Shown in pieces: positions 12,218 to 34,480 of a stretch of 36,114 nucleotides of DNA. A program made the position numbers and the translations under genes. Location: assembly GCA_902586395.1 (NCBI GenBank), contig CACIHL010000003.1, positions 1 through 36,114 of the forward strand. Reading direction: 5' to 3'. Under the pieces are notes generated by a model. The model searched no databases and was not told the origin of the DNA. It was given only the letters and a program-made list of their open reading frames with translations. Source of the DNA: an uncultured Pelagibacteraceae bacterium (GTDB lineage: Bacteria > Pseudomonadota > Alphaproteobacteria > Pelagibacterales > Pelagibacteraceae). Positions within the stretch are counted from its first letter, which is position 1; the number at the start of each line of letters is the position of its first letter.

Positions 12218-13162
12218 ATGAAACAAAATCCAACTAAACACACAAAAGTGTTAATAATTGGGTCTGGACCTGCAGGATATACAGCGGCAGTTTATGCTGC
12301 TAGAGCTATGTTAAATCCAATTTTAGTTCACGGGATGGAGCCTGGTGGACAGTTAACCACTACTACCGATGTTGAGAATTACCCTGGGTTTGCTGAAGTG
12401 ATTCAGGGACCCTGGCTAATGGATCAAATGAAAGAGCAAGCCAAAGCTGTTGGGACAGAGATGATTGAAGATCACATTTCCTCAGTTGACCTTAAGTCTA
12501 AACCATTTGGGGCTATAGGAGAAAGTGGACAAAAATACTCTGCTGACGCAATTATAATTTCCACCGGTGCTCAAGCAAGATGGTTGAATTTAAAATCAGA
12601 ACAGGAATATAGGGGTTTTGGAGTCTCAGCATGTGCTACTTGTGATGGTTTCTTTTTTAAAGAAAAAACTGTTGCTGTTGTTGGAGGTGGAAATGCTGCA
12701 GTTGAGGAGGCAATGTTTCTTACAAAGTTTGCCTCTAAAGTAAAGTTGATACACAGAAGAAACAAATTGAGAGCTGAAAAAATGCTTCAAAAAAAATTAA
12801 TGGAAAATAAAAAAATTGAAATTATTTGGGACAGCATAATTGAGGATGTCATAGGAGATAAGGATCCTAAAAATGTAACTGGAATAAAAATAAAAAATGT
12901 TAAATCTAATAAAACAGAAGATTTAAAAGTTGATGGGCTGTTTATTGCAATTGGTCATGATCCTGCGACTCAATTATTTAAAGATCAGCTTGAAATGGAT
13001 AGTGAAGGATATTTGATTACCAAATCTGATTCAACGGAAACAAACGTACCTGGTGTATTTGCTGCAGGCGATGTTAAAGATAAAATTTTTAGACAAGCTG
13101 TAACAGCGGCAGGTATGGGGTGTATGGCTGCACTTGAAGCTGAAAAACATCTTTCATCGTAA
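12218..13162 (+). CDS. trxB: Thioredoxin-disulfide reductase
   Basis: 314 aa; GSGPAGYTAAVYAARA (FAD), CATCDGFFF (CxxC redox motif), VVGGGNAAVEEAMFL (NADPH), GVFAAGDVKDKIFRQAVTAAGMGC. Confidence 0.97.
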   Translation: MKQNPTKHTKVLIIGSGPAGYTAAVYAARAMLNPILVHGMEPGGQLTTTTDVENYPGFAEVIQGPWLMDQMKEQAKAVGTEMIEDHISSVDLKSKPFGAIGESGQKYSADAIIISTGAQARWLNLKSEQEYRGFGVSACATCDGFFFKEKTVAVVGGGNAAVEEAMFLTKFASKVKLIHRRNKLRAEKMLQKKLMENKKIEIIWDSIIEDVIGDKDPKNVTGIKIKNVKSNKTEDLKVDGLFIAIGHDPATQLFKDQLEMDSEGYLITKSDSTETNVPGVFAAGDVKDKIFRQAVTAAGMGCMAALEAEKHLSS

Positions 13163-13169
13163 AAAATGA

Positions 13170-14117
13170 ATGAAAAATAATCTACATGTTTTTTTGGGAG
13201 CCACTGTTGCTGATGCTGCAGCTAGACCTTTGCACTGGGTTTATAATCAAAGGAAACTACTAACTTATATCAAAGGAAAGAAAGATTTTGCTTTTTTAAC
13301 GAAAAACAAAAGTCCTTTTTACAATATCAAGACTGGAAAAGTTTCAGGTTATAATGAAGTTGGTCAAGTCATGTTTAAAACATTGATTGAAGGACATGAA
13401 AATATAGAAGAAAGATTTAAAAAAAATATTACTAAAAACTTTGGTCCTGGAAGTGAGCATTGGAAAAACCTTAATCTAAGAGCCAAATATAGAAAGATTA
13501 AAGATTGGCGAGGTATAATTAAAGGACCTTGGATACATCAAAACATCATTGAAACAGTTAAAAATATTAAAAATAAAAAGAAATTAACAGGTGGCGCTAA
13601 AGTAAATGAGTCTGATGGTTATTGTGCTGCTCTACCCTTTTTTTTATATGGTTGTGATTTAAATAGCTTAAAAAAGATTATCTCAACAGTTACCGTTTCA
13701 AAAGTAAGCCTTAAGTATGCTTTGGCTAAATTTTATCTAATAGATTTAGCTCTAAAAGGTGCTAAAAATCCAATAAATGAATTCTTAAAAAAGTTTAAAA
13801 AAAATTCATATTTTAAGAGTGTTGTTGACGACATTAGTAGAGTAAAAAAATTAAAATCAAAACCTCACGCAAAAGTGGTTAAAAAATTAGGAATGGCGTG
13901 CAGCTATCCTGGGACTTTTAATAGTTCAATACACTCAATTATTAATTCAACAAATTATAAAAGTGCAATTTTGGGAACAATTAAGGCTGGTGGTTGTAAC
14001 TGTTCTAGGGTTAATTTCATTGGAGCTTATTTTGCCGCTTTAAAAGGTATTAATTCAATTCCTAAATCCTGGATAAAAAAAACTGATCGTGCTAAAAAGA
14101 TCTTAAGTCAAAAATAA
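13170..14117 (+). CDS. ADP-ribosylglycohydrolase-fold protein of the J1-crystallin-like type
   Basis: 315 aa; FLGATVADAAARPLHWVYN near the N-terminus and AGGCNCSRVNFIGAYFAALKGINSIPKSWIKKT near the C-terminus align with the ADP-ribosylglycohydrolase/J1-crystallin layout, with altered metal motifs. Confidence 0.7.
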   Translation: MKNNLHVFLGATVADAAARPLHWVYNQRKLLTYIKGKKDFAFLTKNKSPFYNIKTGKVSGYNEVGQVMFKTLIEGHENIEERFKKNITKNFGPGSEHWKNLNLRAKYRKIKDWRGIIKGPWIHQNIIETVKNIKNKKKLTGGAKVNESDGYCAALPFFLYGCDLNSLKKIISTVTVSKVSLKYALAKFYLIDLALKGAKNPINEFLKKFKKNSYFKSVVDDISRVKKLKSKPHAKVVKKLGMACSYPGTFNSSIHSIINSTNYKSAILGTIKAGGCNCSRVNFIGAYFAALKGINSIPKSWIKKTDRAKKILSQK

Positions 14118-14136
14118 TATAGAAAGTCTCAATAAA

Positions 14137-16362
<2,226 letters not shown>

Positions 16363-29274: not shown

Positions 29275-30015
29275 ATGAATACGATTAATGCAAGTTTAAG
29301 AAATACTAAAACCTCTGGTGAAGTAAATAAACTAAGGACAGAAGGGAATGTTCCTGGCATAATCTATGGTGGAAAATCAGAGACTCAAAAAATATCTATA
29401 TCAAAAAAACTGTTGAAAAATTTAATTGAGAAAGAGAATTTTTTATCAAGTATATTAAATTTAAAAATTGACGGCAAAGATGAAAATGTTTTACCTAAAG
29501 AAATTGCTTACGATATCTTAACTGATGATCCAATTCATATTGACTTTTTAAGAATTGTAAAAGGTTCAAGTGTAATAATTGAAATACCAGTAAATTTTAT
29601 CAACACAGAAAAATCTCCTGGTTTGAAAAGAGGTGGTGTATTAAATATAGTTCGTAGGAAAGTAGAACTAAAATGTCCATCTGAAAACATTCCAAGTGAA
29701 CTGGTTGTTAATTTAGATGGAGTTGATATAGGACATTCTTTTAAAATTTCTTCAATTAAACTTCCTGAAAATGTTGAACCAACTATTCGTGGTAGAGACT
29801 TTGTGATCGCAACTGTAGCAGCACCAACAGTTATTAAAGAACCGGAAAAACCAGCAGAGACAGAAGAAGGAGCAGAAGGTGCGGAAGCAGCTGCTGCAAC
29901 TAGTGAAGGAGCTGCAGAAACTGGTGATGCAAAAGATGCTAAAGGGGCTGAGGGTGAGAAAAAAGAAGCTGATAAAAAAGAGGACCCAAAAAAAGGTCAG
30001 CCTGAAAAAAAATAA
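29275..30015 (+). CDS. rplY: 50S ribosomal protein L25/general stress protein Ctc, with long low-complexity C-terminal tail
   Basis: 246 aa; VNKLRTEGNVPGIIYGGKSETQKISISKKLL, DPIHIDFLRI, VPVNF-like IPVNFINTEKSPGLKRGGVLNIVRRKVELKCPSENIP; then a 60-70 aa Glu/Ala/Lys-rich tail. Confidence 0.95.
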   Translation: MNTINASLRNTKTSGEVNKLRTEGNVPGIIYGGKSETQKISISKKLLKNLIEKENFLSSILNLKIDGKDENVLPKEIAYDILTDDPIHIDFLRIVKGSSVIIEIPVNFINTEKSPGLKRGGVLNIVRRKVELKCPSENIPSELVVNLDGVDIGHSFKISSIKLPENVEPTIRGRDFVIATVAAPTVIKEPEKPAETEEGAEGAEAAAATSEGAAETGDAKDAKGAEGEKKEADKKEDPKKGQPEKK

Positions 30016-30042: not shown

Positions 30043-30276
30043 ATGTTACTTTTTGTTGGACTTGGAAATCCAGGAAGAGGAAGAGCTTTGGGTGTGAATA
30101 CTGTAAAGTTTACTGGTGAAGTTCTTAAAAATGTCAAAAAAGCAATTTATGAAATAAATATGAAAAAAATTCTTAAAAAAGAAGGAGCGACTGTTGGCCT
30201 GGCTAATGGAATACTATTAGCTGATGGAAAACAAATTTACACAACAGAAAATTTAAAAGTAGGTTTATTCAAATAA
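30043..30276 (+). pseudogene. Chimeric ORF: first ~11 aa of peptidyl-tRNA hydrolase (Pth) fused in frame to the C-terminal ~66 aa of 3-hydroxydecanoyl-ACP dehydratase (FabA)
   Basis: MLLFVGLGNPG is the Pth N-terminal signature and follows rplY, its usual neighbour. [67 protein letters not shown] matches the FabA C-terminal half (E. coli ...[32 protein letters not shown]...[26 protein letters not shown]) and precedes fabB-fabI. Confidence 0.85.
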
Positions 30277-31487
30277 TGAAAAGAGTTGTTGTAACTGGGA
30301 TTGGGGTAGTGTCTTGTTTAGGAAACAATCAAGATGAAGTCTATCAGTCTCTATTAAATTCTAAATCAGGAATTTCTTTTTCTGATGAATACAAAGAGTA
30401 CAATCTAAAAAGTAACATACATGGAAAACCAAAAATTAATCTTGAAGACCATGTTGATAGAAAATTTATAAGGTTTATGGGACCTGGCTCAGCTTACAAT
30501 TATATATCAATGGCAGAGGCAGTTAAAGACTCTGGTTTAGAAGATAAAGATGTAAGTAATATATCAACTGGTATGATTATGGGTTCAGGGGGACCATCCA
30601 TTGAAAATGTAATTTTAGCAGCTGATAAAACTAGAGCCAAAAGTCCAAAGAGAATGGGTCCATTTGTAGTTCCAAGAACTATGTCTAGCACTGCTTCTGC
30701 GACGCTAGCAGTTCCATTTAAAATCAAAGGAGTTAATTATACAATAAGTTCTGCATGCGCAACTAGCGGACACTGTATCGGTAATGCGATGGAATTAATT
30801 CAATTAGGAAAACAAAAAATTATTTTTGCTGGGGGAAGTGATGAAGTTCATTTTGCCATGACCGCTATGTTTGATGCAATGACTGCATTATCTTCAAAAT
30901 ATAATGACACGCCAGAAAAAGCTTCGAGACCTTATGACAAAACAAGGGATGGATTTGTGATAGCCGGTGGTGGTGGAGTTTTGGTTCTAGAGGAATATGA
31001 ACATGCAAAAGCACGGGGTGCAAAAATATATGCAGAATTGACTGGTTATGGAGCTACCTCTGATGGTTACGATATGGTTGCACCATCTGGTGAAGGAGCT
31101 GTCAGGTGCATGAAAATGGCTTTAAGTACTGCAAAAAATAAAATTGATTACATAAACACGCATGGAACATCAACACCTGTTGGTGATATTACCGAATTAA
31201 AAGCAGTTGGAGAAACTTTTACAGATTATAAACCAAAAATAAGTTCAACAAAATCATTAGCAGGTCACTCCTTAGGAGCTACTTCAGTTCATGAGGCAAT
31301 TTATAGTTTAATAATGATGAAAAATAGTTTTATAGCAGCATCCGCAAATATTACTGACATGGATGACGAGGCTAAAAAATATCCGATAGTTACCAAAGTT
31401 GAAAAAGGTGTAAATTTAAACTCCGTAATGTCTAATAGTTTTGGTTTTGGTGGAACTAACGCAACGCTAGTTTTTGAAAAGGTTTAA
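30276..31487 (+). CDS. fabB: Beta-ketoacyl-ACP synthase I
   Basis: 403 aa; [32 protein letters not shown] (active-site Cys), [49 protein letters not shown]. Confidence 0.97.
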
Positions 31488-31490
31488 TTT

Positions 31491-32276
31491 ATGGATCTAA
31501 TGAAAGGAAAAAAAGGACTAATCATGGGTGTTGCAAATGAAAGGTCTATTGCGTGGGGAATATCTCAAAAATTAGCTGAAGCGGGTGCAGAATTAGCATT
31601 CACTTACCTTGGGGATGCTCTTAAAAAAAGGGTTATACCTTTAGCAGAAAAATTAAATTCAAAAGTTACATTTAGTTGTGATGTTGAGAAAAAAGAAGAA
31701 GTAGTAAAATTATTCGAAGATATAAAAAAACAATGGGGTCAAATTGACTTTGTGGTTCATGCAGTTGCATTTTCAGATAAATCAGAACTGTCTGGTGAGT
31801 ATCTCAATACAACTAGAGAAAATTTTTTAAGAAGTATGTTAATTTCATGTTTTTCATTCACAGAGGTTGCAAAAGAAGCGTCTAAGATAATGAAAGATGG
31901 AGGAAGTATGCTAACATTAACCTATGAGTCTACAAAGGCAATTCCAAATTATAATGTCATGGGTGTTTGTAAATCTGCATTAGAGGCTAGTGTAAAATAT
32001 TTAGCAAGGGATTTGGGTTCTAAGAAAATTAGAGTAAATGCAATTAGCGCTGGTCCAATCAAAACGCTTGCTGCATCTGCAATTGGTGATGCTAAATTCT
32101 TATACAAGTGGAATGAGGATCATTCTTTTTTAAAAAGAAATGTTGATATTCACGATGTAGGAAATTCAGCCTTATATTTATTAAGTGATCTTGGTGGGGG
32201 TGTGACTGGTGAAATTCATTATGTTGATGCTGGTTATAACAAAGTAGGAATGCCTGATCCAAAAAATATGTCATAA
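31491..32276 (+). CDS. fabI: Enoyl-ACP reductase FabI
   Basis: 261 aa; KGLIMGVANERSIAWGISQKLAEAGAELAFTY, DFVVHAVAFSDKSELSG, LTYESTKAIPNYNVMGVCKSALEASVKYLARDLG, VNAISAGPIKTLAASAIG. Confidence 0.97.
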   Translation: MDLMKGKKGLIMGVANERSIAWGISQKLAEAGAELAFTYLGDALKKRVIPLAEKLNSKVTFSCDVEKKEEVVKLFEDIKKQWGQIDFVVHAVAFSDKSELSGEYLNTTRENFLRSMLISCFSFTEVAKEASKIMKDGGSMLTLTYESTKAIPNYNVMGVCKSALEASVKYLARDLGSKKIRVNAISAGPIKTLAASAIGDAKFLYKWNEDHSFLKRNVDIHDVGNSALYLLSDLGGGVTGEIHYVDAGYNKVGMPDPKNMS

Positions 32277-32407: not shown

Positions 32408-34480
32408 TTAAACAGCTGCCTGCTTAATTGATAGTTTTACTTTTCCTCTATCAAAACCAATAACTTTTACTTTTACTTCATCACCTTCTTTTACAACATC
32501 AGTAACTTTAGCTACTCTCTTATCTGCAAGTTCTGAAATATGCACAAGTCCATCTTGTTTTCCTAAGAAATTTACAAATGCCCCAAACTCCATAATTTTC
32601 ATAACTTTACCATTATAAATTTTATTTAGTTCTGCTTTAGCTGTTAAATCTTTGATCATTTGCATAGCTTTGTTCCTAGAATCTTCATCTGGTGCTGCTA
32701 CAGTGACTACTCCTTCATCATTCACATCTACTTTAGCTCCTGATTTTTCAACAATTTCTCTTATAGTAGCTCCACCCTTACCAATGACAGTTGCAATATC
32801 TTTTTTATCAACTGTAATTTTTTCCATTTTTGGCGTGTGTTTACCCACATTGTCTCTAGATTTAGCTAAAGCTTTATTCATTTCTCCTAAAATATGAATT
32901 CTTCCGTCTTTAGCTTGTTTTAAAGCTTGTTCCATTATCTCAAATGTAATTCCTGTAATTTTAATGTCCATTTGTAAAGAAGTAATTCCATCCTTAGTTC
33001 CAGCTACTTTAAAATCCATATCTCCAAGGTGATCCTCATCTCCAAGAATATCTGAGAGCACGCTAAAGTCATCTCCCTCTTTTATCAGCCCCATTGCAAT
33101 ACCTGCTACAGGCTCTTTTATTGGAACTCCAGCATCCATTAGAGCAAGAGATGAACCACATACCGTTGCCATTGAAGAAGATCCATTCGACTCAGTAATT
33201 TCAGAAACTATTCTAAAAGTATAAGGAAAGCTTTCTTTAGATGGTAGTGAAGATTTGATAGCTCTCCATGCTAATTTTCCATGGCCTATTTCTCTTCTTC
33301 CAGTACCTATTCTGCCAGTCTCGCCAACAGAAAATGGGGGAAAATTGTAGTGAAGCATAAATCTTTCTCTTTGAAGACCTTCTAAGCTTTCTATTCTTTG
33401 TTCATCGTCAGAAGTTCCTAAAGTTGTTGTAACAATTGCTTGTGTCTCACCTCTAGTAAACAGTGCAGATCCGTGAACTCTTGGCAATATTCCAACTTCA
33501 CACATTATTGGCCTTACATCGGCAAGTCCCCTACCATCAATTCTATTCTTATTTTTTAGGATATCTGTTCTCACAATACCTTTTTCAATATCTTTTAGTT
33601 CATGCATAACATCCAACTCAGTAAAGTTTTCATCCTCTTCATAAAGTTTTTTTGCTTTCTCTGTAACCTCAGATATTAAATTTGATCTCTCTTGTTTATC
33701 TTTAATTGAGAAGGCTTTTTTTAAGTCTTTGCTAAATTCTCCATCTAATTTTTTCTTTACAGATGATAAATCTTTTTTCTCAACAACCCATTCAGGTTTT
33801 TTACATTCCTTCGCTAAATCCTCGATCATTTTTATAACTGGCACAAATCCTTCATGACCAAATTTTACAGCGTCCAACATTTGTTGCTCGGTTAAACCAC
33901 TAGCCTCTGATTCTACCATCAATACAGCGTCTTTTGTTCCTGCTACGACTAAGTCTAGTTTTGAATGCTCTAAATCTTTTTTTGATGGATTTAAAACATA
34001 CTTTCCATCAATAAAACCAACTCTTGACGCCCCAACTGGTCCTAAAAAAGGCATTCCAGAAATAGCTAATGCAGCTGAAGAGGCAATGATTGATAAAATA
34101 TCTGCTTCGTTTTCTTTATCATATGAAATTACTGTGGGTAACACTTGTACTTCATTTTTAAATTCATCTGGAAACAAAGGTCTTATAGGTCTATCAATCA
34201 ATCTAGAGATTAGAGTTTCGCTCTCTGTTGGTCTTGCCTCCCTTTTAAAGTATCCTCCAGGTATTTTACCTGCAGCGTAATATTTTTCTTGGTAGTTTAC
34301 CGATAATGGAAAATAATCCACATCTGGGTTAACTTTTTTTGCACCTACGGCTGTTGCTAAAACTACAGTCTCACCACAAGTAGCTATAATTGCTCCATCT
34401 GCTTGACGAGCAACCTTTCCTGTCTCAAGGGTAATTTTCTTTCCCCCAAAATCTATTTCTTTTTTAAAAACTTTAAACAT
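32408..34480 (-). CDS. pnp: Polyribonucleotide nucleotidyltransferase
   Basis: 690 aa; two RNase PH domains, KH domain [23 protein letters not shown]1 domain [28 protein letters not shown]. Confidence 0.99.

Follow-up and report, generated by a model that had tools for sequence, protein, structure and literature searches.

The open reading frame between rplY and fabB

The window analyzed here, a stretch of 36,114 nucleotides, corresponds to contig C3 in the assembly G000 (594,305 bases in 44 contigs, ~60% complete), a genome of the Candidatus Pelagibacter type. Between rplY and fabB, it carries a single-frame, stop-free open reading frame (ORF) of 77 amino acids at positions 30043 to 30276, the protein product of which starts with MLLFVGLGNPGRGRALGVNTVKF. 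The ORF consists of the start of pth, followed in frame by the last ~70 residues of fabA (Table 1).

Table 1. Composition and neighborhood of the ORF at positions 30043 to 30276 of the window
Feature	Position	Strand	Basis or context
rplY (ribosomal protein bL25, CTC family)	29275..30015	+	Left synteny block prsA-rplY-pth; protein 95-97% identical to its counterparts in ten near SAR11 relatives
5' part from pth (MLLFVG): peptidyl-tRNA hydrolase start codon and initial codons	30043..30060	+	Identical or nearly identical to the pth starts of ten near relatives
Join, word CTTGGAAATCC	30061..30071	+	Aligned parents; present in fabA, and in pth either exactly or with CTA for CTT
fabA-derived 3' part (FabA residues about 97/99-166); catalytic His69/Asp83 region gone	30072..30276	+	Homology and Pfam PF07977
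fabB (3-oxoacyl-ACP synthase)	30276..31487	+	Right synteny block fabA-fabB-fabI; collinear with G141, G168, and G049
fabI (enoyl-ACP reductase)	31491..32276	+	Collinear with G141, G168, and G049

An initial annotation had described this ORF as an in-frame chimera of Pth and FabA that has lost the catalytic His and Asp of FabA, and both statements were borne out, the former by the ORF itself, by nucleotide homology and by Pfam. The only Pfam match in the ORF was to the C-terminal half of FabA (PF07977, profile positions 72 to 137 of 138; E value, 4e-8), and the Pth profile (PF01195) gave no match in it. Compared with FabA, a 3-hydroxydecanoyl-ACP dehydratase/isomerase, the ORF shares residues about 97 to 166 (96-99% identical at the protein level to the FabA of G049, G141, G168, and G008) and the place before fabB-fabI, but it lacks the N-terminal ~58% and does not span the full domain; His69 and Asp83, located by motif in the 166-amino-acid FabA of a relative, lie upstream of the part that was kept. 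Similarly, its likeness to Pth is limited to the first 6 to 10 residues and the place after rplY, whereas everything past GLGNP is gone, the catalytic body included.

Position of the join and the shared word

At the nucleotide level, homology to the rplY-pth loci of ten near relatives, which were identified through rplY (93-97% identity), ends at position 30071, and homology to fabA-fabB-fabI loci starts between 30052 and 30064, varying with the relative. The fabA loci of G049, G141, G168, and G008 are 93-98% identical to the window from 30055 on, through fabB and, where the sequence reaches that far, fabI too. When identity to G141 was computed in 20-bp bins across the join, it dropped from 0.9-1.0 to 0.15-0.4 for pth and climbed from 0.2-0.4 to 0.85-1.0 for fabA. 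Aligned at the join, the parents read GTTGGACTAGGAAATCCTACACC (pth) and GGTTGGCTTGGAAATCCAGGAAG (fabA), and the window reads GTTGGACTTGGAAATCCAGGAAG; A30060 is specific to pth, and A30072 is of the fabA type. T30063 is of the fabA type as well if the pth of this strain has CTA, the codon found in its ten nearest relatives (CTT is present in 10 of the 79 pth genes examined). Depending on whether that pth codon is CTT or CTA, the word CTTGGAAATCC is therefore common to the parents at 11/11 or 10/11 bases; if it is CTA, the perfect match at the switch shrinks to CT, with GGAAATCC adjoining. The 10/11 case would also fit a primer strand from the fabA side, the primer retaining its own mismatched base.

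These data place the switch at 30061 to 30071, slightly upstream of the site that had been annotated (30067 to 30078) although close to it. The assignment of codons 1 to 11 to Pth holds for the start but not for codon 11 (Gly), which is already fabA; in the nearest relatives, the Pth sequence is MLLFVGLGNPTPNSENN. If an inverted join were placed at random, the chance of a shared run, computed for the window, would be ~5e-4 for at least 8 bases, ~7e-5 for at least 10 bases, and ~4e-5 for at least 11 bases. Since a shared run of 10 to 11 bases is thus improbable by chance, we conclude that microhomology, with pairing between the two words, guided the join. The continuity of the reading frame, on the other hand, is a coincidence, because both genes encode LGNP in the same frame at the shared word.

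Parental loci in the genus and in the host assembly

Across the genus set (399 genomes, G000 included), a degenerate pattern spanning the chimeric junction matched G000 alone, with 0 matches in the 398 other genomes, which ruled out a trait shared by a lineage. As to the gene order after rplY and before fabB, a comparison suggested in the initial annotation, downstream sequence was available for 79 of 80 rplY loci, with pth next in 79/79, and the block fabA-fabB-fabI is collinear with G141, G168, and G049. Among the listed matches in other genomes, FabA lay in an open frame of about at least 150 codons in all but two, of which the short frame in G071 is a contig end and that in G040 (locus L011, 1,722 bases) appears to be one also. 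At one of the 79 rplY loci, a broken pth was observed in AG-435-N04, another SAR11 genome with a single-cell-type isolate name, where a short out-of-frame internal deletion (L080:5786-6260) has removed about residues 80 to 100; this deletion, which may have used the short repeat TTGGAG, is probably a second amplification artefact, of the direct type.

The native gene order of G000 itself was deduced from that of its closest relatives, G141 and G168. On a single 335-kb contig of G141, fabA is found at C2:53692(+) and pth at C2:316403-316945(-), and on one contig of G168, they are found at C1:181133(+) and C1:443878-444420(-), respectively, i.e., on opposite strands and ~262.5 kb apart (262.7 kb in G168). 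Opposite strands were likewise seen in the more distant G155, G012, and G082 (the last two each a single contig), with the genes 275 to 285 kb apart by coordinates. In G035, G042, and G075, a single contig carries pth and fabA on the same strand, so gene order within the genus is variable. Because of the opposite orientations in G141 and G168, the window represents an inverted join relative to its closest kin and not a deletion. A simple deletion between neighboring genes was ruled out on the same grounds, and the earlier suggestion that material is missing between the two parts does not quite hold, as no single deletion gives this join.

The ORF does have a start codon, an open frame, rplY upstream, and about half of the FabA domain, as would be expected of a functional short gene, be it a novel fusion or a FabA-like protein with a regulatory role that was selected in this lineage. 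However, it occurs in no other genome, the catalytic residues of both enzymes are gone, and the loci of both parents are intact in those close relatives whose sequence spans them, which leaves a selected gene with next to no probability.

We then considered the remainder of the host assembly, in view of the suggestion that full-length copies might be present elsewhere. In this ~60% complete assembly, no match to pth (PF01195) was found anywhere, the YchF C-terminal family gave no match (ychF is absent), and the sole FabA-domain match was the ORF itself. The parental junctions are absent from it, and so are the 5 kb normally located 3' of pth or 5' of the fabA break, if weak matches of short length and the junction are disregarded. 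While at 60% completeness such absences are not proof, they remove the support for copies elsewhere. Additionally, a frame error hiding full-length genes was ruled out, as the missing parts of both parents are absent from the surroundings as well as from the rest of the assembly.

Both flanks of the join are collinear with relatives save for small gene insertions. One of these, at 13152 to 15139, is a flexible gene insertion of ~2 kb between trxB and an aminotransferase gene; it is absent from G141 and G168 and carries a gene of the ADP-ribosylglycohydrolase family (PF03747) and one encoding an NAD-dependent epimerase/dehydratase (PF01370). At position 32412, between fabI and pnp, G141 has a 206-amino-acid methyltransferase-like ORF (L110:16052-16672) that neither the window nor G049 contains. 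Collinearity with relatives also held for two 20-kb samples from other G000 contigs (C1 and C2; 40 kb), except for a small flexible insertion of ~1.5 kb in C2 (L132:15548-17071), which has no counterpart in G141 and G168 and is collinear on both sides; the coordinates in the relatives overlap by ~40 bp, which suggests that a short direct repeat flanks it.

Origin of the join

The two loci are oriented in relatives precisely as a simple inversion would require, and a real inversion of ~262 kb in the cell, breaking pth and fabA at the 11-bp word that they carry in inverted orientation, would have yielded two fusions: the ORF described here and a reciprocal FabA(1-~98)::Pth. With the words at offsets 288 and 21, both 0 mod 3, the latter would be in frame and open too and might be Pth active, with FabA lost, and the variable gene order of the genus (G035, G042, and G075) is in line with rearrangement. 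Nevertheless, we regard such an inversion, although it is the one serious alternative, as unlikely. The junction was seen in 1/399 genomes, neither the reciprocal junction (fabA 5'::pth 3') nor its flanks left any sign in the assembly (of which, admittedly, about 40% is missing), and FabA would be destroyed, with no other FabA-domain gene found in the assembly. Moreover, the inversion would break both pth and fabA, which are normally essential. That the cell carried the inversion and survived because the reciprocal FabA-Pth fusion supplied Pth activity is a more specific version of this idea, and we consider it highly improbable.

A join made purely in silico, by an assembler or scaffolder connecting two unlinked contigs, would account for a unique junction to which relatives lend no support. 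Short-read assembly, however, usually employs k-mers longer than 11 bases, so that a shared word of 10 to 11 bp falls below them; the join contains no run of N, and its precise placement at a shared word indicates a chimeric molecule. Being too short to confuse an assembler, the 11-bp word suggests that the chimera probably existed in the amplified DNA and did not arise in software, and we see hardly any likelihood of a computational origin.

The reading that very probably applies is that the ORF is not a gene but the in-frame scar of an inverted amplification chimera, in which the rplY-pth locus was joined to the fabA-fabB locus, the two loci belonging to one SAR11 genome or to two that are nearly identical. 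As phi29 polymerase amplified the whole genome, a 3' end displaced from one locus would have been extended after annealing at CTTGGAAATCC to a strand from the other, and the chimeric product would then have been amplified and assembled into one contig. A microhomology artefact of amplification had already been one of the options in the initial annotation, and it is the better reading since the join is inverted, lies at an 11-bp (or 10/11) word, and is unique among 399 genomes. We infer that its source was MDA and not a living chromosome. Judging by its relatives and its low completeness, G000 is presumably a single amplified genome; almost all of its near relatives in the collection are named as single-cell isolates.

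The join shares several properties with the inverted MDA chimeras described by Lasken and Stockwell in 2007 (PMC1855051), which likewise connect opposite-strand segments of one genome (compare G141, G168, G012, G082, and G155) precisely at a short complementary word (2 to 21 nt), without a common gene function; it is absent from the 398 other genomes. Of 475 chimeras in that study, 85% were inverted, and priming at matching bases, up to 21 of them, accounted for most junctions (PMC1855051); elsewhere, overlaps were mostly 5 to 8 nt (PMC4595205). The join is in frame here, which sets it apart, and its one untypical feature for an MDA chimera is the distance between the segments, ~262.5 kb in G141 and G168. 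Of the inverted chimeras, 337/406 joined segments <10 kb apart, but 69/406 spanned >10 kb, marking short distance as a tendency and not a requirement; shared bases were present at only about a third of the junctions in chimeras of >10 kb (PMC1855051). On benchmark cultures, the SCGC marine single-cell workflow behind the GORG genomes produced misassemblies at a rate of 1.5 per 100 kb (PMC11247762). If G000 is of the SCGC kind, ~0.5 misassemblies would be expected in 36 kb, and a break in a 36-kb contig is therefore unremarkable.

In summary, the pth-fabA fusion almost certainly represents an error of copying during single-cell-type DNA amplification rather than a real gene; in related genomes, as far as their sequences indicate, both genes are intact and distant from each other, in most cases on opposite strands. 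It provides a clean example of an amplification chimera posing as a gene, being in frame, with a start codon and plausible neighbors. For SAR11 gene catalogues and synteny studies, this means that the ORF should be taken neither as a fusion or rearrangement nor as a sign that pth or fabA has been lost.
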